61,158 nt of DNA, taken from assembly GCA_023701385.1 (NCBI GenBank), contig JAMPXC010000016.1, positions 1-61,158 on the forward strand, given 5' to 3'. Both the position numbers and the translations under genes were made by a program. The notes beneath the pieces were generated by a model. The model saw nothing but the letters and a program-made list of their open reading frames with translations, did not search any database and had not been told where the DNA came from. The DNA is from Pseudobdellovibrio sp. Lineage in GTDB: Bacteria; Bdellovibrionota; Bdellovibrionia; Bdellovibrionales; Bdellovibrionaceae. Below are positions 21,697 to 34,796 of the stretch, piece after piece (position 1 is the first letter of the stretch; the number at the start of each line of letters is the position of its first letter).

Positions 21697-22473
21697 ATGA
21701 AACCCATTTCAGAATTCACGACAAAAATCCAGTTTCTGTTAACCGACATCGATGACACGATCACGACGAATGGCCAGCTCACAGCGGAATCTTACGCCGC
21801 CTTAGCAAAATTGAAGCAGCACGGTATCAAAGTTATTCCCGTCACAGGACGCCCTGCTGGATGGTGCGATATGATCGCCCGCTTCTGGCCTGTGGATGCC
21901 GTGATTGGCGAAAACGGCGGGCTATATTACCGATATCACGAAAGAAAAATGCTACGCTGGAATTTTGCTGATGAAAAAACATTGGCAGAAAATCAAAAAA
22001 AACTGCAAGTGATCCGTGCTGAAATTAAACAGAAAGTTCCTAAAGCTGCAATTTCAGCAGACCAATTCTGCCGCATTTACGATTTAGCTGTCGATTTTTG
22101 TGAAGACATCCCAAGACTTTCAGACGACGAAATCAAAGCCATAGTGGCGATTTTTAAAGCGCATGGCGCAACGGCTAAAGTCAGTTCAATTCACGTCAAC
22201 GGATGGTTTGGTGCCTTTAACAAAGTCACAACGGCTAAACTTTTATTACAAAAAGAATTCGGATTAAACGAAGCACAAATTCTTGAACAGTGCGCTTACG
22301 TTGGTGATTCGCCCAATGACGAGCCGTTATTTGAGAATTTCAGACACACTTTTGGTGTAGCGAATGTACGTGATTTCACCTCACAAATGAAACATTTGCC
22401 AGCCTTTGTTGCGCCTTCTGAATCAGGCCGTGGCTTTTGCGAAATCGTAGAAAAAATTATTTCTAATAAATAA
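21697..22473 (+). CDS. HAD-IIB family hydrolase
   Basis: This 258-residue Cof-type/sucrose-phosphatase-like HAD phosphatase has motif I as T-D-I-D-D-T-I-T-T-N (nucleophile Asp near 17), motif II as V-T-G-R-P-A-G-W, the N-G-G segment typical of type IIB, and motif IV as V-G-D-S-P-N-D. It probably dephosphorylates a sugar phosphate in the cytosol. It is divergent from topA. Its 3' end overlaps the end of the convergent outer-membrane protein gene by 11 bases, so no terminator lies between them. Confidence 0.88.
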   Translation: MKPISEFTTKIQFLLTDIDDTITTNGQLTAESYAALAKLKQHGIKVIPVTGRPAGWCDMIARFWPVDAVIGENGGLYYRYHERKMLRWNFADEKTLAENQKKLQVIRAEIKQKVPKAAISADQFCRIYDLAVDFCEDIPRLSDDEIKAIVAIFKAHGATAKVSSIHVNGWFGAFNKVTTAKLLLQKEFGLNEAQILEQCAYVGDSPNDEPLFENFRHTFGVANVRDFTSQMKHLPAFVAPSESGRGFCEIVEKIISNK

Positions 22474-23713
22474 CTTTAAGGCCGACTGTAGCTTTCCAGT
22501 CATCAAGAAGTTTAAATTCGCTATCTTGTTCTCCGCGAAAAGCCGAGTACTGGCCAAACACGTTCATCCAATCAAGCACTGATTTATCGAATTCAAATTG
22601 TTCAACACCCGAATTGTCCATAAGCGATGTTAAAGAACGAAAGAATAAACTTAAGTCTTTAATTTCAAAGGGATCCGTTTTACGTAAAGAGAAATACACA
22701 TAATTTTGCGATAACAACTCTAAACCAGATTTTTGAAAACGTTTGATGTTATCTACCAAGTAAGGTGAAAGCTGTGATGATGCTAAAAGTGCACAATCAA
22801 ACTTTTTTTGATCGTAGCCGGCTGAATTATAAATATACTCTAATCTAGCATCAAAGTTATCTTCGTAGCGAAATCCGGCAACTGCTAAAGTCGACATCGC
22901 ACCATCTTGATCACTCGGAAGCATTCGCTGAAAAACACCGTCAGTCTGCGGCTCGTAAAATAAATTATTCACACTGTGTTTAGCATCAGCATAGATACTC
23001 ATACCTTCGGTGAATTCGTATTGAAAATATTCACCTATAAAAAAATCAGCGTTATCTGGAATACCAAAAGCTAAGCCTAAGAAGTTTCTTGTGCCCGTCC
23101 AAGCGGTTTCAAACTTTCCGGCAAATTGAGGTTTAAACTTTTCTTCGGCGATCCAGTGAGCTTCGTTATTTGAAACAGGCTCTACCATAAAAACAAAGTT
23201 GTAATCAGATTTGGCATTCCAGTTCAAACGCAGTAAGGCTTTACCTTTTTCTTTATACACCAAACTTCTTTGATCGGTATTAAAATGAAAGAACGGATTT
23301 GATGGATTTAAAATTTCAGCCGGGCCCCATTGGTAAACCTGAAGGCCAACAGTTGTAAAAATACGATCAGTGATATATTGCTCATAAAAAGCATCCGTTA
23401 GATTTAAGTCAGTGTCGTTTTTAGATTCATTTTTTAGAGTTGTTTCGGTTTTATAATTTTGTTGGTACGACACTAACCTTGGACGAAAAATAATTTTCGC
23501 ATCGTTAATTAACCACTTAAATTCAGCTCGCTGATCTAAAAAAACGCTGGTTTCAGGAATATTTAAAACTTCATTGCCGATATTAATAATCGAGTCGGCG
23601 TAATCACGCTGTTCACCAAATAAATACGCTTCATAACTAAAACCGAACTCCACGTTTTGCGCCAACGCTGATAACGGAAGTAAAAGTGATAAAACCAAAA
23701 GCCATTTACACAT
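22463..23713 (-). CDS. Predicted outer-membrane beta-barrel protein of an ABC/LolA operon
   Basis: This 416-residue protein has a signal peptide (residues 1-18, A-L-A-Q site). The mature part has alternating strands with many aromatic residues and ends in valine-isoleucine-tyrosine, a terminal aromatic as in outer-membrane barrels. The segment V-Y-Q-W-G-P-A-E-I-L-N-P-S-N-P resembles the Q-x-x-W-G-E-x-x-x-N-P pattern of DUF1302-type barrels; this is a resemblance noted by eye. It is the last gene of a five-gene operon and overlaps the preceding permease gene by 8 bases. It could be the outer-membrane exit or acceptor for the exported cargo. Confidence 0.75.
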   Translation of the reverse strand: MCKWLLVLSLLLPLSALAQNVEFGFSYEAYLFGEQRDYADSIINIGNEVLNIPETSVFLDQRAEFKWLINDAKIIFRPRLVSYQQNYKTETTLKNESKNDTDLNLTDAFYEQYITDRIFTTVGLQVYQWGPAEILNPSNPFFHFNTDQRSLVYKEKGKALLRLNWNAKSDYNFVFMVEPVSNNEAHWIAEEKFKPQFAGKFETAWTGTRNFLGLAFGIPDNADFFIGEYFQYEFTEGMSIYADAKHSVNNLFYEPQTDGVFQRMLPSDQDGAMSTLAVAGFRYEDNFDARLEYIYNSAGYDQKKFDCALLASSQLSPYLVDNIKRFQKSGLELLSQNYVYFSLRKTDPFEIKDLSLFFRSLTSLMDNSGVEQFEFDKSVLDWMNVFGQYSAFRGEQDSEFKLLDDWKATVGLKVIY

Positions 23714-25019
23714 AAGTTAAGTTATCGATGATTTTGCTGCGAATAATTTGCCGTGTCGCAAAGTATGTCGCAATTGTTCCTACTGAAAGTAATAAAAGAA
23801 AGGCGGCAATATACGCTTCAGAATAAAAAGCGATTCTAAAAGCCACAGGCTCAGATAAAATTCCGCCTTTGTATAAAATCTTAACTGAATTAAATCCCAC
23901 AGTTAGAATAGCAGCCATCACAGCCCCCACCCCGGTTCCCATAATAGATAAAAATAAACTTTCTAAGAAAAACATTTTAACCACTTGCTGTGGTAAAAAA
24001 CCGATACTGCGCATAGTTCCGATTTCGCGTGTTCGCTCTTTTACTAGCTTTACCATGGTGTTTAAAACTGACAACGTCGAAACAATCACAATCACGATCA
24101 CCACGAAATTTCTAAAGATCGAAAGAAAATCCATAGTCTTTGTATACATCTCACCTAAGCGGTGATCTTGCCAACGTTGAGCTTGTAGATAATTTTTATC
24201 TTTTAAAATCGTGTTATTGATATAATCCACAATCGAAGCAACCGACCTACCGGGAACTTCTAAAGTGATAAAGCTGACTTTATCGGTGTTCATTAAAGTC
24301 TGCGCTGCTTCAAGCGACGTTTGAATATAACGATCATCAACATCTTTATAACCAGCATCCATCAGCGCCACAGCCGCAAGATCCACCGCATTTAGCTGAC
24401 CGTCGACTGTAGTTGTGGAAATCTGTAAATCTTTAGTTAAACACTCAAAAGGCTTATCCACTTCGGCATAGCCACCGTAAAAAGTTAAAGTGTTTGGATC
24501 TTTCACCCAAGTGCACGCCAGTTTTCGTGCCAGGCCTTGCCCTAGAGCTCCTACAAACGGTGTCTCTTGACGATCTAGCGGAGCTCCATAAGTCACATTC
24601 CATGACCAGTTTTTTCCACGCAGTTTTTCACCGTCGACTAAATCATAGCCACGGCCTAATAAAATCTGCGATTGCACACCGTTAGTAATCATACCTTGGA
24701 AATTTAAGTTACGAACGACATGAGGAGCTTTTACCGGATCAGCTTTTACTTGTTGTAAAATATAATCCTGATCTTCTTTCGTGATCCAAAAATTCCAAGG
24801 GTTAGTAACACCCTCTTTTGAATACTGATCTTTATGTTCGATAATAATGTCGCCCAGCATCTGACGATGTTGAAAGTTATCAATATACATCGCTTTTACA
24901 TCGTCGATGTAACCGTCAAACAACACCAAAGAAACAAATGAAGCAGATAAGCTTAATAACGCCGAAATCGAATGGCGCCAGTTCTTTAAAGTGTTACGAA
25001 AAGCGATCTTAATTAACAT
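23706..25019 (-). CDS. FtsX/LolE-type ABC permease (second of two)
   Basis: This 437-residue membrane protein has one N-terminal membrane segment (about 18-38), a large periplasmic domain (about 40-285) and three C-terminal segments, the MacB/FtsX/LolCE arrangement. The FtsX-domain signature V-K-E-R-T-R-E-I-G-T-M-R-S-I-G-F is clear, the site that couples to the ATPase. It follows the LolA-like gene by 5 bases and overlaps the barrel gene. With the first permease it would form a heterodimer. The periplasmic domain contains conserved-looking cysteines, two of them in the C-T-W and F-E-C-L contexts. Confidence 0.88.
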   Translation of the reverse strand: MLIKIAFRNTLKNWRHSISALLSLSASFVSLVLFDGYIDDVKAMYIDNFQHRQMLGDIIIEHKDQYSKEGVTNPWNFWITKEDQDYILQQVKADPVKAPHVVRNLNFQGMITNGVQSQILLGRGYDLVDGEKLRGKNWSWNVTYGAPLDRQETPFVGALGQGLARKLACTWVKDPNTLTFYGGYAEVDKPFECLTKDLQISTTTVDGQLNAVDLAAVALMDAGYKDVDDRYIQTSLEAAQTLMNTDKVSFITLEVPGRSVASIVDYINNTILKDKNYLQAQRWQDHRLGEMYTKTMDFLSIFRNFVVIVIVIVSTLSVLNTMVKLVKERTREIGTMRSIGFLPQQVVKMFFLESLFLSIMGTGVGAVMAAILTVGFNSVKILYKGGILSEPVAFRIAFYSEAYIAAFLLLLSVGTIATYFATRQIIRSKIIDNLTYV

Positions 25020-25024
25020 TTCGA

Positions 25025-25747
25025 CTATCTCGTTAAATTATTCACATTAAAAATAGAATTTGAAACCTGAGTCACTTTAGGAGCTTTGTAAGTGATCGTG
25101 CTTTTATTATTTTGAAATTTAGCATCGGCAATAGCTAGTTCACTGATAAAAGGAAATGTTTCACCAGCAGCAGTTAATGTATTACCGTATTTTAATAAAC
25201 CCACTTTAAATGGTTTACCTTGTAATGTTAAAAACTCAGCTTTCATCGCTAATTTCGTTTTATCGCTGATCCAATAACGAATTTTATCGTAAGTTAAGTT
25301 TTTCGATTTCGCCGTTAACATTAAGACATGCATTTTTTCGCCGTTTAAGTTTTCTGTCTTTTCAATCACCGCTGAATAATCACGCGCGTAGTGGGTTGAC
25401 GCGATATCGCCGTTCGCCGCTTGGCCTGTTAACTTTTGACGAGCTGAAATTGAAACTGGCTTTTTTAAAGACGGTTTAAAAAACCACATATTGCGGTCGT
25501 TAAAGATATAAACTTCACCTTTGTTCTTTGCAGGCTTTGTCGCTTCCACATAAGCATCATCGCCTTTAGCTTTAATATTAAATTCACGCGTGCTACTTTC
25601 TCCATTTTCTTCGGTTTCAATGACCGCATTCCACTGCACGCCATCTTTAACACTTCCACGGGCACGGTCTGAAGCTTTTAATAAGTCTGAGGCAAGATCT
25701 GCTTTTGCATAGAAAGGAATCGCCAATAAAAGAATTAAGAATTTCAC
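25025..25747 (-). CDS. LolA-like outer-membrane lipoprotein-sorting protein
   Basis: This 240-residue periplasmic protein has a signal peptide (about residues 1-16, Y-A-K-A-D). The body fits the LolA/LppX-like fold (COG2834): W-N-A-V-I-E-T, then a strand with K-G-D-D-A-Y-V-E, M-W-F-F-K-P and a W-I-S-D-K-T-K-L segment. The family carries lipids or lipoproteins in a hydrophobic groove between the membranes. Its start overlaps the first permease stop by four bases (25744-25747). A position between two permease genes suggests a dedicated carrier that takes cargo from the ABC complex to the outer membrane. Confidence 0.82.
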   Translation of the reverse strand: MKFLILLLAIPFYAKADLASDLLKASDRARGSVKDGVQWNAVIETEENGESSTREFNIKAKGDDAYVEATKPAKNKGEVYIFNDRNMWFFKPSLKKPVSISARQKLTGQAANGDIASTHYARDYSAVIEKTENLNGEKMHVLMLTAKSKNLTYDKIRYWISDKTKLAMKAEFLTLQGKPFKVGLLKYGNTLTAAGETFPFISELAIADAKFQNNKSTITYKAPKVTQVSNSIFNVNNLTR

Positions 25748-27063
25748 GCATCATCTCCATCTTCGGCGTCATCACCGAAAGTTGAACTGTCATTAAGTAA
25801 AGCAATTAACTTTGTACGTAATTTGTTTTTAATCACAAAAAACGACGATAAAACTGAAATCGTAAATAAAAGAATAAACACAAAGCTTGCGATATACAGA
25901 TTCCATTTTAAAACGAACTGAATTTTAGCACTCGCCCCAGGCGGGAAGAATCGAATATTAGCTGCATTTACCGCGCTTGAGACCAAAAACGAAATCACAA
26001 CACCGATGCCCATACTCATGACTGATAACAAGATACTTTCGCGCACAAAAAGCTTAACGACATCTAAGCTTTTAAAACCTACCGCACGTAATGTTCCGAT
26101 TTCACGTGTACGTTCAATAATACCCATCGTTAACGAATTAATAATTGTTAAGCTCACGGCGGTGCAAATTAAGAATAAAAAGAATCCACCCATCACGTAC
26201 AGAAATCCCATTGTTCCCTGATGAAGAGCATTGATCTCTGGCGCATCAAAGCGGTAAACATCCGTTGAATAACCTAAAGTTGAAAGTTTATCTTTAAGCT
26301 GCATAATAAATTTATCAATGGATACATCTGGCTTTAAATAGATCGAAATTGATTCGACAGCATCTGTAGCTAATAGCTCTTGAACTTTTTTAATCGGAAT
26401 AAGAACCACTGTATCTTCTAAGAACTGCATACCTGTCGTGTGCTCAGCACCAAGCTCGGCATTGATCGCATTTAAATCACCGTCCAATGAGCGCGCGGCA
26501 ATTTGAATCGTGTCATTATCTTTTAATGGGTATTTAAACGAAAGAATCTCGGCAATCTTTGGCGTAATCGAAACCGTTTCAGGGTTACGCACAAAAAGAT
26601 CCGCATTCTCACGCTGTGATGGCAGAACCCAATCCTTCGCCCACTCTAATAACATCGGCTGCGTTAAAGATTTTTGATAGGCCACCGGATCAAATCCATA
26701 GATTACAACTGGATGTGATTTTGTGCCGTTTGAAAAAAGGCCGGGAACAGAAATCTGCTGGCCTGTGTATTCAATTTGCGGTTCAAGATCAGCCATTACT
26801 TTTTTAACTTGTTCTTGCTCTTCAACACTGAACACGTATTTTTTAGGTTTAATCTGATACTGTTCAATTGCATCTTTTTTGTAGATACTGACATGACCTT
26901 TTTGGGCTGAGTAAACCGAAGTTGTATCTAGGGCCATTTTAGAACGGTAAATATAAGCACCTAAAAGATTAAGCCCGACAAAGCCCACAGTAATTGCCGC
27001 ACCCGTTGATAACGAGCGGCGTTTATTACGTAATAAATTTCTGTAGGCAAATTTCCAAATCAT
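25744..27063 (-). CDS. FtsX/LolC-type ABC permease (first of two)
   Basis: This 439-residue membrane protein has the same plan as its neighbour: an N-terminal segment (about 15-38), a periplasmic domain, three C-terminal segments, and the signature I-I-E-R-T-R-E-I-G-T-L-R-A-V-G-F. An acidic tail follows (D-D-A-E-D-G-D-D-A). The two permeases share the family but differ widely, so this is not a recent duplication. Its start overlaps the ATPase stop by four bases (27060-27063), and its stop overlaps the LolA-like start. Confidence 0.88.
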   Translation of the reverse strand: MIWKFAYRNLLRNKRRSLSTGAAITVGFVGLNLLGAYIYRSKMALDTTSVYSAQKGHVSIYKKDAIEQYQIKPKKYVFSVEEQEQVKKVMADLEPQIEYTGQQISVPGLFSNGTKSHPVVIYGFDPVAYQKSLTQPMLLEWAKDWVLPSQRENADLFVRNPETVSITPKIAEILSFKYPLKDNDTIQIAARSLDGDLNAINAELGAEHTTGMQFLEDTVVLIPIKKVQELLATDAVESISIYLKPDVSIDKFIMQLKDKLSTLGYSTDVYRFDAPEINALHQGTMGFLYVMGGFFLFLICTAVSLTIINSLTMGIIERTREIGTLRAVGFKSLDVVKLFVRESILLSVMSMGIGVVISFLVSSAVNAANIRFFPPGASAKIQFVLKWNLYIASFVFILLFTISVLSSFFVIKNKLRTKLIALLNDSSTFGDDAEDGDDA

Positions 27064-27776
27064 TGTTCGATCTGACCGTCTTTGATTTTTACAATTTTTT
27101 GCACACGGCTCATTAATTTTTCATCATGCGTGCAGAAAAAGAATGTCACATGTCTTGTGCGGTTTAACTCTAACATCAAATCAATAATTAAATTCGCTGT
27201 TTTTGAATCTAAGTTCGCTGTGGGCTCATCAGCTAAAATTAAAGCCGGTGAAGTCACAAGTGCTCGTGCAATCGCCACACGCTGACGTTGACCACCCGAT
27301 AACTGATCAGGTCTATGATGCATAAATTCAGCTAAGCCGACATCTTTTAAAGCCGCTTCAACTTTAGCTTTTCTTTCTTCAGCTTTAATATCTTTTCTGA
27401 TCGTTAACGGAAGCTCAACATTTTCATAAACATTTAATACCGGAACTAAATTGAACGACTGAAAGATAAAGCCAATTTTTTCGTTACGCAGAGCGCTTTT
27501 TTGATTTTCATTTAAATCTCTGACGTTCATGCCATCAATTAAGATATCGCCTCGATCAACACCATCTAAACAACCAATAAGATTCAGTAAAGTTGTTTTA
27601 CCCGATCCTGAAGCTCCAATAAGGGCGGTAAATTCACCTTTGGTCACAACCAAAGAAAGATTTTTAATCGCATCGACGTGGGTTTCACCCAGCTTATAAC
27701 TCTTTGATATATTTCTGATTTCTACGACTGATGACATAGAGGTATTGTCCGCTCTGTCTACATCTTTGACAACCAT
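27060..27776 (-). CDS. LolD/MacB-type ABC transporter ATP-binding protein
   Basis: This 238-residue nucleotide-binding subunit has Walker A G-A-S-G-S-G-K-T-T, the Q-loop in F-I-F-Q-S-F-N-L-V-P, the signature L-S-G-G-Q-R-Q-R, Walker B A-L-I-L-A-D-E-P-T and the H-loop T-H-D. The sequence type is that of LolD, MacB and FtsE, which drive extraction or mechanical work rather than classic import. An alternative ATG at 27737 would remove 13 residues; neither start has a clear ribosome site. It is the first gene of the operon, so the promoter should lie in 27777-27993. Confidence 0.9.
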   Translation of the reverse strand: MVVKDVDRADNTSMSSVVEIRNISKSYKLGETHVDAIKNLSLVVTKGEFTALIGASGSGKTTLLNLIGCLDGVDRGDILIDGMNVRDLNENQKSALRNEKIGFIFQSFNLVPVLNVYENVELPLTIRKDIKAEERKAKVEAALKDVGLAEFMHHRPDQLSGGQRQRVAIARALVTSPALILADEPTANLDSKTANLIIDLMLELNRTRHVTFFFCTHDEKLMSRVQKIVKIKDGQIEQ

Positions 27777-27841
27777 TTATTGTTTTCATCTAGTTCGTGT
27801 TTTCTCACCCAAACAGGCCTAAATAGAGTATCTTCTGACCC

Positions 27842-27988
27842 ATGATTGAATTTAGAAAAAGATTGTTTTTATTTTATGTTGGCTTATTTACGGTCATCTA
27901 CTTAGGTAAGCAGCTTGCTGCAGAGCAAAGTGCTATTATGGCCAAAGCCACTATCGGCCTTCAGTCATTAGTCACGTACATAAACTAG
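27842..27988 (+). CDS. Possible 48-residue single-pass membrane protein
   Basis: An ATG-to-TAG frame of 49 codons encodes a basic start (E-F-R-K-R), a hydrophobic segment of about 15 residues (L-F-L-F-Y-V-G-L-F-T-V-I-Y-L-G) and a short polar tail. It fills the 217-base gap between the ABC operon and the fatty-acid-hydroxylase gene, on the opposite strand to both. No convincing Shine-Dalgarno sequence is present, so expression is uncertain, but the composition looks protein-like. If it is not a gene, this gap holds only the ABC operon promoter. Confidence 0.4.
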   Translation: MIEFRKRLFLFYVGLFTVIYLGKQLAAEQSAIMAKATIGLQSLVTYIN

Positions 27989-27993
27989 TCTTT

Positions 27994-28734
27994 TTATTTC
28001 TTACGTTTGTCTTTGGCGTTTAAGGTTTTAAACCACAGATCCCAGCCATTAAAATACAGACCAAAATTAGAACTTGAAACTTGATGGTGAATATTATGGT
28101 GCGTTGGTGTCGTGATCCAGCGCCCCCACCAGCTATTCTGCACTTTTTCAGAAAACACTTCGTAACCTAAATGCCCCGCTAAATTAGCCATATCAGTCAA
28201 AATCAAAATCACGGCTAACATCGGCACACTCACACTCGTTACAAGAAAAAACGGAAAGAAATAAAGCATATTCGCAAATGCTTCAATCGGATGAAACGAA
28301 TATGTCGCCCAGGGTGTTGGGTTTAAGGATCTGTGGTGAACGACATGCACGTTACGATATAACCAACGGTTCTGGTGCATGATCTTATGCAGAAAATAAA
28401 AGAACGGATCATAGATCATCACATAAATTAACAACGCCACCAGATCTTTCCATAACGGCTGCTCAGCTACGATATGCACAATACCTTGTTCGTTTAATTT
28501 ATAGATTAAGAAAAAACACACAGCCTGAATCACCAGCGTGTAGGCTGAATACTTCATTTCTAATTTAACTTGTGGCTTAGCACGCTCTTGCACTTGGATT
28601 TTTTTAAACATGCTTAGCCACGACGGTTTAAGCATCCAAAAAACATAGTACGCCGATCCCATGATCGAACTATATTTAATAGCTCCAAAAGCTAAGATGG
28701 CTAAAAAAGCCAACAAGTCATTAGAGCTGATCAT
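27994..28734 (-). CDS. Fatty acid hydroxylase / sterol desaturase family membrane protein (copy 2)
   Basis: This 246-residue integral membrane diiron protein has the His boxes H-K-I-M-H, H-V-V-H-H and H-N-I-H-H, as in the PF04116 superfamily, set among four or five hydrophobic segments. The family hydroxylates or desaturates lipid tails or sterol-like substrates using O2. Its start overlaps the end of the phospholipase D-like gene by 14 bases, so the two are coupled. A related but clearly different member is encoded at 30715-31425. The substrate is unknown, but the context of a ketoacyl synthase points to an acyl or long-chain lipid. Confidence 0.88.
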   Translation of the reverse strand: MISSNDLLAFLAILAFGAIKYSSIMGSAYYVFWMLKPSWLSMFKKIQVQERAKPQVKLEMKYSAYTLVIQAVCFFLIYKLNEQGIVHIVAEQPLWKDLVALLIYVMIYDPFFYFLHKIMHQNRWLYRNVHVVHHRSLNPTPWATYSFHPIEAFANMLYFFPFFLVTSVSVPMLAVILILTDMANLAGHLGYEVFSEKVQNSWWGRWITTPTHHNIHHQVSSSNFGLYFNGWDLWFKTLNAKDKRKK

Positions 28735-30610
28735 AAAACATTCTCAGAGGTAATAATGTTGAACTATTAATTGGTAAATTCAATTCTACTGATTTATCTA
28801 ATCGCGCTGCGCTTTCAACTGAAATATCTTTTTCAAAGGCTTGCGTGGCTTGTTTAGCTAAACGAGCATGATCAAATAGAGCGATCGACTCGCCTTCCAT
28901 TTTTTCAGAGCGCGGGTGATAGTTATAACTTCCAATCAAGAATAAACGCTGGTCAACAATCATAAACTTAGAATGAAGTGTGCTGCCTTTACGTAAATAA
29001 ACTTCAGCTCCAATATCAGCTAATTTTTTTGCCGAACGCGTAATCGGTAATGCCACGACTGGTTCATCTACGCTATCCATAGAATTAGTTAAAACACGTA
29101 CACGTACGCCACGATCAACCGCAGCTTTGATTTCGCTTAAGAGCGCCGGAAACACGATCACATAGGCATTTTCAATATCCACAGTTTTTTCCGCACCACG
29201 AATAGCCTTCATCGTTGCCAATAGAATTTCGTGCTGGTCATTCACATTACTTGGTTGGTGTTCGATAATCATCGCACGACCATCAACTTTGCTAGAAACC
29301 TGCTGTTTAACTTTTACGATTTTCTTTAACTCTAGCTTCTGGTCATCAATTTGTTTATTCCATAAAATCGTAAATAACCTTTGTGTTTGTTCTGTAGTTT
29401 CACCTTCAATAGCTACGTCAGTATCACGCCATAAATTTTTAGCTTCACCCGCTTTATGACTGTAGGTATCGCCGGGGTTCATTCCACCCAGGATCGTTAA
29501 TGATTCATCGACAATTAAAATCTTACGGTGCTGCCCCATAAACGTGGCGTTCGGGTTATACCAACGAACAACTGAAACACCATTTTCCTGCATACGCTGA
29601 ACGTTTTCTTTGTAGCCTACACGGTGACTCACTTGACCATCTACGATCAAGCGCACTTTCACACCTTCTTTGGCTTTATCAATTAGCAGATCTGCTAGCT
29701 CCCGACCGGTTTTATCATCTAACACAGCCCAAGTAAGCATGTTGATCGACTCTTTGGCGTTAGCCATAGCCGAATCACGCAAAGCAAATGAGTCCGGGCC
29801 ATCAATTAACAATCTTGCGTTTTGTGTTGGGTAAAATTGCGCATTCGCTGCATCTGATAATTCAGCAAAATAATGACTGTCAGATAAACGAGTTTGTTTT
29901 TGAGCATCTTGTTCAAAACTATTTAATTTGAATTCTAATTTTTTTGAAAGATCAGTCCATGACTCTTGAGAAAACTTTCTTAATGAACGAGCCGAAGTGA
30001 TCGTGGCATCAATCGTTGATAATAACATTAGTTTTTCATCAGGTGTAATGGCTTTAACTAATGAACCCAAATGAGCATCTTTTTTAAGAGTTTCAACCAG
30101 CGTTGAAATAAACGGAACTAATTTTCCCTCGCCGTGAAGAGTGATTAAGACATTTAAAATTTCATTTTCAACAACTGTTAAATCGGTCTCAGCTAAATCA
30201 ACAATCACACTTTGACCATTCGCATTTTTAATAATACCTAACTGGGCACTTGGATTAATTAAATGGCCTTTTGAAGCCCAGATCGCGACAAGTTCTTTAA
30301 TTCTGAACCCAACATCACTGCTTACATCCGAAAAAACACTGTCTAATAAATCAAGATCAAAAATTTTAACGACTGATGGGTGCAATAACTGAATATCTAA
30401 CACTTCGTGAGAACCGCTCACCTTAGCTACAAGCTCTTGAAATTTAAGCTTTAACTCATGAGCGATATCTTCAAACATTTGCCCCACATAACCAACGCCA
30501 AAGAAGGGAGTCTCGGGTGCCTTTTCTGCTGAAAAGCCCTTATGAGGCGCTAAAATCGAAATAGTAAGGACACTGGCTAAGGCAACAGAGAGCGGTTTGT
30601 TCTTTTTCAT
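28721..30610 (-). CDS. Exported phospholipase D-like protein with two HKD motifs
   Basis: This 629-residue protein has an N-terminal signal-like segment (about residues 8-27, ending F-S-A-E) and a helical region of about 230 residues with no recognised domain. A PLD pair follows: H-R-K-I-L-I-V-D-x6-G-G-M-N near 360 and H-S-K-F-M-I-V-D-x6-G-S-Y-N near 545. Both HxKx4D motifs are complete, so catalysis is expected: phosphatidyl transfer (cardiolipin synthase-like) or phospholipid cleavage. The signal suggests action in the periplasm. The 104-base gap upstream may hold a promoter of its own. It is coupled to the downstream hydroxylase gene. Confidence 0.87.
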   Translation of the reverse strand: MKKNKPLSVALASVLTISILAPHKGFSAEKAPETPFFGVGYVGQMFEDIAHELKLKFQELVAKVSGSHEVLDIQLLHPSVVKIFDLDLLDSVFSDVSSDVGFRIKELVAIWASKGHLINPSAQLGIIKNANGQSVIVDLAETDLTVVENEILNVLITLHGEGKLVPFISTLVETLKKDAHLGSLVKAITPDEKLMLLSTIDATITSARSLRKFSQESWTDLSKKLEFKLNSFEQDAQKQTRLSDSHYFAELSDAANAQFYPTQNARLLIDGPDSFALRDSAMANAKESINMLTWAVLDDKTGRELADLLIDKAKEGVKVRLIVDGQVSHRVGYKENVQRMQENGVSVVRWYNPNATFMGQHRKILIVDESLTILGGMNPGDTYSHKAGEAKNLWRDTDVAIEGETTEQTQRLFTILWNKQIDDQKLELKKIVKVKQQVSSKVDGRAMIIEHQPSNVNDQHEILLATMKAIRGAEKTVDIENAYVIVFPALLSEIKAAVDRGVRVRVLTNSMDSVDEPVVALPITRSAKKLADIGAEVYLRKGSTLHSKFMIVDQRLFLIGSYNYHPRSEKMEGESIALFDHARLAKQATQAFEKDISVESAARLDKSVELNLPINSSTLLPLRMFYDQL

Positions 30611-30714
30611 AAGAATATCAAAGCTGCTATCCGTGTTCCAAAGTGGGTTTTGACACGTTAGTTTAGGCGCTAAAATACTGTATAAGAGTTTAACAGGTGC
30701 CCTGTTTTGCGGGG

Positions 30715-31425
30715 CTAATCTTTGGCTACGGTCTTAAAAAGCTGGTCGAACCACGGCAAGAAAAAGCCATAATTTGAATGCGGAATCTTATGGTGCAGGC
30801 TATGGCGTTTTGAAAAACTTAAAAGGCTACTTTGACCAGCCTGCGGAAAAAAATCAACATTCGAATGCCCCAAAACATTCATCGAAATACTCATCGCTGG
30901 TAGAACCATTATCGAATAAAACTGAAAGTCATGAAAAAGCATTACCACTGGCATTACGGCTCCTAAGATTACCCCTTCAGTCCAATGAAAACTGTACGCT
31001 GAAAATGGTGACGGCACAAAAGAGTAATGATGATCGACATGGTATTTGTAGAGCGATTTTAAATGAAACAAGCGATGAAATGTGTAGAAGTAAATTTCAT
31101 TCCAGAAAAACAAAACTACGACTTCGATTAAAAAAGTTGTCCACGTAAATTCAAAATTATATTTATAAATTCCACGTTTCAAGCCTTCACATAACAGAAT
31201 AGCTAAAAGTGAAAACATAAAAATCGATAAGAACGAACTTTTAATTTCAGTCTTGATTTGGCCAGGGCGAAAATCTTTATTTTGCACCTTAGGCCACAGT
31301 TTTTTTACGCAAAATAAGTAATACGAAATACTGCAAAAAGAAAAATACAGAACAGAAAAGCTAATAAAGCTTACCAAGAAAAATTGCCAGTGGTTAAGAC
31401 TTAAAACTAACTGCTCTAGATTCAT
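30715..31425 (-). CDS. Fatty acid hydroxylase / sterol desaturase family membrane protein (copy 1)
   Basis: This 236-residue membrane protein has the three His boxes H-R-L-F-H, H-V-D-H-H and H-S-L-H-H, complete for a diiron site, and about four membrane segments. It lies 3 bases after the stop of the upstream gene of unknown function, and so belongs to the same transcript as the synthase-oxidase fusion. It is only distantly similar to the second copy at 27994-28734, so two separate hydroxylation or desaturation steps are possible. The substrate is unknown. Confidence 0.88.
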   Translation of the reverse strand: MNLEQLVLSLNHWQFFLVSFISFSVLYFSFCSISYYLFCVKKLWPKVQNKDFRPGQIKTEIKSSFLSIFMFSLLAILLCEGLKRGIYKYNFEFTWTTFLIEVVVLFFWNEIYFYTFHRLFHLKSLYKYHVDHHYSFVPSPFSAYSFHWTEGVILGAVMPVVMLFHDFQFYSIMVLPAMSISMNVLGHSNVDFFPQAGQSSLLSFSKRHSLHHKIPHSNYGFFLPWFDQLFKTVAKD

Positions 31426-31428
31426 GAC

Positions 31429-32325
31429 TTAGGCGCTTTTCATTTTTTCGCGCTGTTCAAGCTTCTTCATCACTAAAAACCAATGCCCCATCTCAGTCGA
31501 TAGGCCATGCAAAACTAAGCGAAAACCTGCACTTAAAGTGATTAAAGAAACCAGCGGATGTTTGTTATTCACTAACACTAAATGTTGATGTGAATTTAAA
31601 ATCGTAGCCGCATACACACCAATTGTCTCATCTAATTGCAACGAATTCGTGGCGCGCCAGAAATCATTATCTGTTAAGAAAAACTGATAAACCGGAGTGT
31701 ATAGCTCAATCGCCGTTTCTAAATCGATAAAGTTAAAGAACCCATCTTTCGGCATTTCGATATCAAATTCACCTTCGGTTAGCATTGAAAAATCAGGCTT
31801 TTCCAAAGGTTTAATCTTAAGGCCCTTTTCACGCAGCTCTTTATTTAAATTAATAACGAAGTTAAAAAGATTTAAATCATGAGTTAAGAATAAATTATTT
31901 TTCAAATCTTCTAAATTTTTAGGGCGCAGGGGATTCATCGGTACTTTTACGCCAGGAACATTTCCACCCACAAAAGCTAAAATCTCAGAGCCCAACCAGA
32001 AGTGACGTAAGATCAGATAATTCGCTTCTTTTTTTACGAAATACTTTAAGCCCCAGTAAATAAGTTGATGCAGTAGTCGCGAAGCGCGCCAATCAATCGG
32101 CGACAACGCTTTAATAACCTGAAAAATAACAATCAAAACTTTTGAAAACACACGCGCAAACGGTAGAACAAATTGACGTGAATTTGAACTAGAGTTCGTT
32201 AACCACAATGTTTTAGCTGAAGGACGAATTGGTGTACTTTGATCTAGATACAGCGCATGCCACGGACTTGGATCATCCGGATCATGCTGCATATTTGCGA
32301 ACATGTCTTCTGGTTTCAGCATCAT
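31429..32325 (-). CDS. Helical protein of unknown function in the lipid operon
   Basis: This is a 298-residue protein without a signal peptide. A hydrophobic stretch (about residues 60-80) and a long amphipathic middle suggest membrane association. Acid/His combinations occur in K-K-E-A-N-Y-L-I-L-R-H-F-W and, near the C-terminus, H-G-L-S-T-E-M-G-H-W, which could bind metal, but this is speculative. It may belong to a family known only by a DUF number that travels with ketoacyl synthase genes. The ATG at 32325 overlaps the stop of the fusion gene by four bases with GGGAGC upstream; a GTG 15 bases earlier is less likely. Confidence 0.7.
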   Translation of the reverse strand: MMLKPEDMFANMQHDPDDPSPWHALYLDQSTPIRPSAKTLWLTNSSSNSRQFVLPFARVFSKVLIVIFQVIKALSPIDWRASRLLHQLIYWGLKYFVKKEANYLILRHFWLGSEILAFVGGNVPGVKVPMNPLRPKNLEDLKNNLFLTHDLNLFNFVINLNKELREKGLKIKPLEKPDFSMLTEGEFDIEMPKDGFFNFIDLETAIELYTPVYQFFLTDNDFWRATNSLQLDETIGVYAATILNSHQHLVLVNNKHPLVSLITLSAGFRLVLHGLSTEMGHWFLVMKKLEQREKMKSA

Positions 32326-34145
32326 AGAACTTGCTCCCACTGTGCATGATAAAGCTCGGCCACTTTTTTCGCTGTAGCAAGAATGTCATCGCAAGCTTTT
32401 GGCTCTAACGTTAAGGCTAATTCAACAGCATTGGCCCAACGCTCTAAGTGCTTCACGTCGTTTTCGCCGTGATACTCTAAGAACTTAAATACGTTCATTT
32501 GCAGATTTAGGCTCTTTTTTAAGAATGGCAACATCGTCGGAATAATCTTCTGACCCGTTCCTTCGATAATAAAAATACCCCCTAATAAGCCCAATGGGTT
32601 TTCTGAGTTTGCACGCTCATACATGTACTTATTCAGCGCTTCACCACCAGGGTTGCGCTTCAGATCATCGATATCTTTTTTACCACCCGAATTTTGGTAA
32701 TCGGCGTATAAAACTTTGAAATCGAACTGTTCTTCACCGGCATGTTCTTCGATCAGCTCTTGAATACCTTCAAACTTATTTGAAAGATTTGAAATTGCCG
32801 TGCGCATCCATTTAGAACCTTCACGCACTTGCGGAATCCAGTTTTCCATCCACTGCTGGTAATTTTCTACAGTAAATTCATTGTTAAAAATTTTATGGGC
32901 AAATTCAGTGCGGTAAACACTTGAACGGTAATTGTGCCAAACACTGCCTAGTTCTAATAATAAATTTTCAACTAGTTTGCGTTCTGGTTTAGGTCTTGAA
33001 ATTTGTGGAGCTTTGCCGTTTTCTAAAACTTCAAATAACATAAAAGAAACCGTAAAGCGGCCTGATTCAGGAATAAAACAAAGAATCTTTTCGCCAGCTT
33101 TTGGTTTTTTCGTTTTCATAAACTCATCAAGCATAATGAAAATCGAAGCAGCGCCCGTATTCCCTTTTGTTGTTAAATTAGAAAACCATTTTTCAGACGG
33201 GATTCTTAATCCCGCTTTATCCATTAAGGTATTCACTACACCAGAGAATCTTTCTGAAGAGTAATGGCATAAGAAATGATCTACGTGATTTGGATCAATT
33301 TCATTTTTTAAAACTAAGTTAATAAATTCACTGATACCTACGTCGAACAAGTTAGGTAATAAACGAATATCTTGACGAAGTAAGAATGAACCTGCTTTTT
33401 CGGCTTCCTGTAATGACGAATAATCTAAATAACTTTTTTTAGATTCATTCCACGGAGAACCGATCTGCATACATGTCGGATAATCACCACTGAAAGATTT
33501 TAAATGAATCCAATCAAGCTTTAGCGAAACACCCGTTTCACGTGGTTTATTTTCAAATAGTACCGCACCCGATCCATCAGACAACATCCAACGTAAAAAG
33601 TGTGAATCGAAATCTAAATTCTCTTCGATTTGCTGAAAGCGCGAAGCTTTAAATAAACGTGACGGAAATTCAGTCGCCAACGCCACCGAACGATTAAACT
33701 CACCGAGCTCAACCACCGAAGCTGCCGCTTTCATCGCAGCCACACCCGAAGCACAGATGCCGTTAAAGCTCATCGTTTGCATCGGTGCCGCACGTAACTG
33801 CCCTTGCACAAGATTGGCAAAACCAGGTGCTGCTAAATCAGCCCCGACTGTTCCCGTGGCTAAAAACGGAATGTCATTCATTTTAACGCCGGTATTTTCT
33901 AAAGTATTTTCGATGGCTTTAATTGCCATATCTGAAGATGAAAACTGAGTACGGCCTTCTTTGTCGATCCCGTAGTGACGAGATTTAATCCCGTTTTCGG
34001 CTAAGATTCTGCGTTTGATACGACTTGATTGTGTATTGATCGAACCAATGTAGGCATCCATCTCGTCATTGTTGACGGCTGGCCCTGGTAAAAAAGATCC
34101 TGTTGAATTCAAATAAACATTTTTAAAATACGCAGGCATTCGCAC
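32322..34145 (-). CDS. Ketoacyl-ACP synthase III fused to a heme-oxygenase-like diiron domain
   Basis: This 607-residue chain has two parts. Residues 1-375 are a KAS III/FabH-type thiolase fold with the catalytic triad intact: Cys131 in N-G-I-C-A-S-G, His294 in L-C-H-Y-S-S, and Asn329 in G-N-T-G-A-A-S. Residues about 390-607 look like an iron-containing redox enzyme of the heme-oxygenase-like (HDO/PqqC-TenA) fold, with I-E-E-H-A-G-E-E near 465-472 and an H-x3-D-x2-H helix near 559-567. The first half should condense acyl groups; the second could oxidise, decarboxylate or desaturate the product. It is the first gene of the lipid operon. Confidence 0.85.
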   Translation of the reverse strand: MRMPAYFKNVYLNSTGSFLPGPAVNNDEMDAYIGSINTQSSRIKRRILAENGIKSRHYGIDKEGRTQFSSSDMAIKAIENTLENTGVKMNDIPFLATGTVGADLAAPGFANLVQGQLRAAPMQTMSFNGICASGVAAMKAAASVVELGEFNRSVALATEFPSRLFKASRFQQIEENLDFDSHFLRWMLSDGSGAVLFENKPRETGVSLKLDWIHLKSFSGDYPTCMQIGSPWNESKKSYLDYSSLQEAEKAGSFLLRQDIRLLPNLFDVGISEFINLVLKNEIDPNHVDHFLCHYSSERFSGVVNTLMDKAGLRIPSEKWFSNLTTKGNTGAASIFIMLDEFMKTKKPKAGEKILCFIPESGRFTVSFMLFEVLENGKAPQISRPKPERKLVENLLLELGSVWHNYRSSVYRTEFAHKIFNNEFTVENYQQWMENWIPQVREGSKWMRTAISNLSNKFEGIQELIEEHAGEEQFDFKVLYADYQNSGGKKDIDDLKRNPGGEALNKYMYERANSENPLGLLGGIFIIEGTGQKIIPTMLPFLKKSLNLQMNVFKFLEYHGENDVKHLERWANAVELALTLEPKACDDILATAKKVAELYHAQWEQVL

Positions 34146-34184
34146 TCCTTGGACGGACTAATACACTGCTAATATTTTAAACTA

Positions 34185-34796
34185 TTAATTCACTTTACCA
34201 ATATATTTCAGGTGTTCTGGCCTTTTGTCATCCCATACAAAATGATGGATGGAACCGTTGTGAAATTGTGTCAAATCCCATTCGACGCCCTGATGAAATG
34301 CGAACGTTAATGCACGCATAACCATACCGTGGGCAAACACCGCGATATTTTGATTCATGTTGTTTTGCGCAATATCCAAAACCGCTTCACGAACACGGAC
34401 CATCATCTGTCTTTTTGATTCCCCGTTCGGGTATCTAAAGTCTAGGTCACGCTCTTCATAGGAACGCCAGCGTTCGATATGTCCTGCGCCAAATTTTTCG
34501 GTCATTTCTTCGTAAGTTAAACCTTCGGCTTCACCGATGTTGGTTTCTTGCAAACGATCATCTTTTTGAATTGGAAGTTTGATATCTTGAATCGCGATCA
34601 GCGCTGTTTCGTAAGCGCGAGTCAGCGAACTTGAAACGACTAAATCAATTTTTAATTCAGTCATACGCGGGCACAAGCCAAGAGCTTGTTCTCTCCCCAA
34701 GTCATTGAGGGGAATATCAGTACGGCCTTGGAATCGTTTAGCACGATTCCAATCCGTCTCACCATGTCGAATAAGAAACAAATTTTTAGTTTTCAT
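34185..34796 (-). CDS. Histidine phosphatase family protein
   Basis: This 203-residue cytosolic phosphatase of the phosphoglycerate-mutase-like branch has the phosphorylated histidine in L-I-R-H-G-E-T-D-W-N near residue 11, the second catalytic His in F-A-H-G-M-V-M-R near 150, and the usual Q-G-R-x-D-I-P-L-N motif. It could be a broad-range phosphatase or an alpha-ribazole-phosphatase-like enzyme. The substrate cannot be told. It lies 39 bases upstream of the fusion gene on the same strand and downstream of the small basic protein gene, so transcription could continue into the lipid operon. Confidence 0.88.
   Translation of the reverse strand: MKTKNLFLIRHGETDWNRAKRFQGRTDIPLNDLGREQALGLCPRMTELKIDLVVSSSLTRAYETALIAIQDIKLPIQKDDRLQETNIGEAEGLTYEEMTEKFGAGHIERWRSYEERDLDFRYPNGESKRQMMVRVREAVLDIAQNNMNQNIAVFAHGMVMRALTFAFHQGVEWDLTQFHNGSIHHFVWDDKRPEHLKYIGKVN

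Follow-up and report, generated by a model that had tools for sequence, protein, structure and literature searches.

Five genes lie in a row on the minus strand of contig JAMPXC010000016.1 from Pseudobdellovibrio sp., at positions 27994-34145 of the 61,158-nucleotide stretch analysed here (the window), and the question they raise is whether they encode a single pathway and, if so, which of them belong to it. The initial annotation had read them as one pathway that builds an oxidised lipid and attaches it to, or remodels, phospholipids at the envelope. The genes considered, together with the operon downstream, are the following.

32322..34145, minus strand: KS-HDO fusion; StlD/DarB-like ketosynthase (KS) at aa 10-373 and haem-oxygenase-like oxidase (HDO) domain at about aa 390-605.
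31429..32340, minus strand: DUF6999 protein (PF22523); constant partner of KS-HDO, with an all-helical model.
30715..31425, minus strand: FAH1; membrane FA_hydroxylase (PF04116) with the eight-His pattern; frequent partner of the core.
28721..30610, minus strand: PLD/cardiolipin-synthase-like protein, predicted to be exported; in the gene row, outside the conserved set.
27994..28734, minus strand: FAH2; second FA_hydroxylase, immediately after FAH1 in two congeners.
22463..27776, minus strand: LolCDE-like operon; ATPase, FtsX permease, LolA-like protein, FtsX permease and a secreted protein that matches no Pfam family.

The list of open reading frames confirms the five genes, their common strand, coordinates and spacing as first described, with the DUF6999 gene started at the ATG at 32325, which is probably its true start: successive genes are separated by a 4-base overlap, a 3-base gap, a 104-base gap and a 14-base overlap. 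The KS-HDO gene probably starts at the ATG at 34139, which is preceded by AAGGAG, rather than at the GTG at 34145. Promoter and terminator predictions were about as numerous as those in shuffled sequence and are uninformative.

We scanned genome contigs with DUF6999, which gave 117 relatives, and kept the best 80 of these, so that this set holds the closest relatives and more distant members are hardly sampled. These best 80 of 117 loci represent Bdellovibrionales, Beta- and Gammaproteobacteria, Bacteroidota and Paenibacillaceae. Each of the 80 has KS and HDO matches immediately upstream of DUF6999, as does one Pseudoalteromonas plasmid locus; within the 80, the KS-HDO frame is broken in L061 and L073, and in L033 and L043 the contig ends inside the gene. 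Among Bdellovibrionota genomes that were not picked by closeness, DUF6999 is found in 6 of 369 (the source genome and five others), so the gene set is accessory, and a sample of 60 Paenibacillales contains one genome with DUF6999 besides the genome around which the sample was drawn. KS-HDO adjoins DUF6999 in every such genome, including three further Bdellovibrionota and one further member of the Paenibacillales. The core is conserved across phyla to a degree that far exceeds chance. When 74 loci are compared in pairs, the identities of KS, HDO and DUF6999 correlate with one another (r 0.90-0.97), which is the pattern expected of jointly inherited genes. The G+C content of the gene block (0.39) is close to that of the remainder of the window (0.40), and recent transfer is not indicated.

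On the Pseudoalteromonas plasmid pTHAF3_a (L015, 8222-10840) KS and HDO are encoded by separate adjacent genes, followed by a divergent DUF6999 (28% identity). The fact that the two are separate but still adjacent indicates that both activities belong to one process. When plasmids were searched with KS-HDO, this locus was the sole match over most of the length, the other listed matches being to the KS alone.

FA_hydroxylase matches above the cut-off were obtained for two of the open reading frames (PF04116; E=2e-20 and 6e-26), and the eight-His pattern is intact in both FAH1 and FAH2. The occurrence of this family near the core is variable, most Gram-negatives having one or two such genes: in the proteobacterial-type group it is found at 29 of 32 loci, in the Bacteroidota/Paenibacillaceae group at 14 of 42, and in Bdellovibrionota at all six core loci, each with at least one copy. 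Searches across the whole of nine genomes from core-bearing Paenibacillaceae recovered no FA_hydroxylase in eight and a weak match in one, and we therefore rejected this family as an essential part. Since KS-HDO and DUF6999 are constant while FA_hydroxylase varies, the minimal unit consists of KS-HDO plus DUF6999. A cluster of membrane desaturases is represented in 21 beta- and gammaproteobacterial loci; the gene lies between FA_hydroxylase and KS-HDO in L070 (6761-7657) and in the 20 others. The gene-neighbourhood survey proposed in the initial annotation thus finds co-occurrence of KS-HDO, DUF6999 and FA_hydroxylase, in the best 80 of 117 loci, in congeners and in the further genomes.

The PLD gene behaves differently. 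Its product has two HxKxxxxD motifs (aa 361 and 546) and an N-terminus that, judged by eye, resembles a signal peptide. Membership of the PLD in a five-gene pathway attaching an oxidised lipid to phospholipids would agree with the shared strand, with the 14-base overlap between the PLD and FAH2 genes, and with the 104-base gap upstream of the PLD gene, whose minus strand shows no terminator-like site. However, the flanking sequence retrieved, of up to 10 kb, encodes no PLD homologue at any of the best 80 of 117 loci, and in two congeners KS-HDO, DUF6999, FAH1 and FAH2 are contiguous, with the PLD missing from the operon. Relatives of the PLD with about 40% identity, in congeners G006, G010 and G011 (all without DUF6999), stand alone amid unrelated genes. 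We therefore rejected the PLD as a pathway member and consider the five-gene reading very unlikely; the PLD probably joined the operon within this lineage. Because the PLD is not a pathway member, attachment to phospholipid, or its remodelling, is left unsupported. In two congeners the cluster lies directly downstream of flhF-flhG-fliA-like flagellar genes (L103, 5779-11140; L102, 7061-12131).

The cluster occupies a variable slot (window 21697-34796), between a phosphoglycerate-mutase-like gene and a HAD-hydrolase gene, which holds other genes in congeners; that of G008 (L148) contains a member of the PLD family. In four of the six congeners examined, one or two unrelated genes separate the phosphoglycerate-mutase-like gene from the HAD-hydrolase and topoisomerase genes; in the source genome it is filled by 11.7 kb comprising the cluster and the LolCDE/LolA-like operon. 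This joint occupation would fit a larger unit in which the operon downstream exports the product, as would the presence of the operon in each of the three core-bearing congeners, and polyene clusters are known to contain LolA-like proteins and exporters, the Azoarcus dar cluster also containing ABC genes (PMC3949708). On the other hand, the operon lies at a separate genomic place in G004 and G008, G005 and G012, in whose incomplete assemblies DUF6999 was not found, likewise have either the operon or its LolA-like gene, and G234 carries the core with no match to the LolA-like protein. Since the ABC operon is located elsewhere in G004, G005 and G008, and the LolA-like gene is found also in G012, the link with the core is weak, and we regard export by this operon as unlikely. 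The operon is kept as a block at its other genomic places in G004, G005 and G008.

What the core might synthesize is indicated by the domains of the fusion protein. The synthase-oxidase fusion proposed in the initial annotation is upheld, as NF005293 (StlD/DarB-like KS) and PF14518 (Haem_oxygenas_2) match a single chain, at aa 10-373 (E=5e-110) and aa 433-600, respectively. The closest PDB sequence match of the KS is StlD (E 1e-74), and the Cys-His-Asn catalytic triad C131, H294 and N329 is invariant in 71 KS-HDO proteins. The scores against the NCBIfam models NF005293 (368 bits, cut-off 450) and NF053539 (DarB; 311 bits, cut-off 550) are both below cut-off, so the specificity of this KS may differ. 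StlD/DarB ketosynthases combine a beta-ketoacyl thioester with an unsaturated one to form cyclohexanediones, and in dialkylresorcinol pathways the DarB product is aromatised by DarA. Neither DarA nor a carrier protein was recognised among the recurrent neighbour clusters that were read or annotated, which are a minority of all clusters. Two acyl chains are joined by related KSs (PMC4578411), and the genes of dialkylresorcinol pathways are listed in PMC3949708.

The HDO domain, as modelled (pLDDT 92.6), has a haem-oxygenase-like seven-helix fold, with matches to 3dde (Z 25.7), CADD (23.9), HrmI (21) and UndA (19.9). In HDOs the ligands are typically three His and three carboxylates (PMC13108848). 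The same count of candidate ligands is present here, since H468, E472, D475, E528, H559 and H566 are invariant in the 71 KS-HDO proteins, with residue 563 being D or N. Between the proteobacterial-type and the Bacteroidota/Paenibacillaceae groups of loci the identity of the HDO domain is 34% vs 52% for DUF6999, indicating that the HDO domain diverged most. Its nearest solved structure, 3dde (Sden_3740 of Shewanella denitrificans), is a protein whose function is not known and which may be a stand-alone version.

The same genes might also yield a product other than a resorcinol, namely an OleA/PpyS-like beta-keto acid or ketone that the HDO domain would cleave or decarboxylate to an alkene, a ketone or a shortened acid, in the way that UndA acts on fatty acids, and it is consistent with this that the fold matches of the HDO domain include UndA, a fatty-acid-oxidising HDO. 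The KS, however, is nearest to StlD/DarB and not to OleA, and the catalytic Glu of PpyS and OleA (E117 in OleA) lies 24-26 residues before the Cys, counted for OleA from the commonly given Cys position, where KS-HDO has AAP, with P107 and G108 invariant (a position taken by offset, not by alignment with OleA). In PpyS this residue is E105, acting with Cys129, and the head-to-head chemistry of both enzymes is known (PMC4578411). We consider such a product possible, though rather improbable.

The second core protein matches PF22523 with E=2e-122 (408 bits, gathering cut-off 27), and its model is all-helical (pLDDT 85). Residues H86, R107, H108, H149, D150, E207, D219, D221, E233, H256, H273 and E278, numbered from the start at 32325, are invariant in 43 sequences, which hints at a site for metal binding or acid-base catalysis. 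No PDB entry matched by sequence, and a fold search gave no useful match (best Foldseek E 0.41, best Z 4.2), which does not prove a new fold. A search of open-access journal papers found none that mentions DUF6999, and no description of the KS-HDO/DUF6999 pair. A DUF6999 match is also present in the genome of Caulobacter vibrioides.

Beside the observed fold, residue conservation and gene linkage stands a predicted chemistry, in which the fused HDO would take over an oxidative step. We propose, with about even confidence, that the genes form a biosynthetic set, mobile by horizontal transfer, whose product is an oxidised two-chain lipid: the KS would condense, the HDO oxidise, DUF6999 convert and the hydroxylases tailor. 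Judging from its family, the KS would load an acyl thioester on C131 and join it to another acyl thioester, probably of the 3-oxoacyl type, to give a two-chain beta-diketo or cyclohexanedione product. The fused HDO would then oxidise this product with O2, for example by aromatising, hydroxylating or decarboxylating it, and would thereby replace DarA, which in dialkylresorcinol pathways is an aromatase in its own right. DUF6999, the constant associate, may handle the product or convert it further, completing an obligatory step. The FA_hydroxylases, in some bacteria also the desaturase, are optional by their distribution and would oxidise the chains within the membrane. The earlier suggestion that several O2-dependent iron sites cooperate, apparently with a lipid as substrate, survives with these as probable sites, but without its PLD part. 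It also stands that the five-gene set matches no described pathway, none having been found in the literature searched.

A product of KS-HDO and DUF6999 that serves as a signalling molecule, rather than as a membrane lipid, appears improbable: the hydroxylases are dispensable, and dialkylresorcinols and photopyrones, made by related KSs, act as signals (PMC4578411), but in the window and the two congeners no regulator gene was seen next to the core, other than that for the flagellar sigma factor, which lies upstream in both congeners. The oxidised two-chain lipid is our preferred product. Tentatively, it may represent an undescribed lipid natural product or class of membrane lipid, common to Bdellovibrionota, Pseudomonadota, Bacteroidota and Paenibacillaceae, in which a KS oxidises its own product via a fused diiron domain and DUF6999 has a new metalloenzyme fold. 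The gene set is compact, can be cloned as two genes and spans four phyla, its probable product being a new oxidised lipid; DUF6999 gains its first context through the pairing with KS-HDO, and the HDO is proposed to act on a substrate made on the same polypeptide.

Several known systems resemble parts of this locus. FAH1 and FAH2 carry the eight-His membrane diiron signature of the FA_hydroxylase family PF04116. With the HDO superfamily (CADD, UndA, HrmI, FlcD) the domain described here shares its fold (Z 19-26), and its three invariant His and three invariant carboxylates are candidate ligands of the same number, but it is fused to a ketosynthase and has an apparent H-x6-D where CADD has E-x6-H. 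The words 'fusion' and 'ketosynthase' are absent from a 2026 review of HDOs (PMC13108848). The KS domain is nearest to StlD in the PDB and to NF005293 and retains the catalytic C-H-N, but unlike StlD/DarB ketosynthases it is fused to an HDO domain, has no carrier protein or DarA recognised among the neighbour clusters read or annotated and scores under the family cut-offs. The Azoarcus dar/arc (arcuflavin/flexirubin) clusters likewise combine a related KS with ABC and LolA-like genes (PMC3949708), whereas their polyene genes and aromatase DarA were not recognised among the annotated neighbours of KS-HDO.
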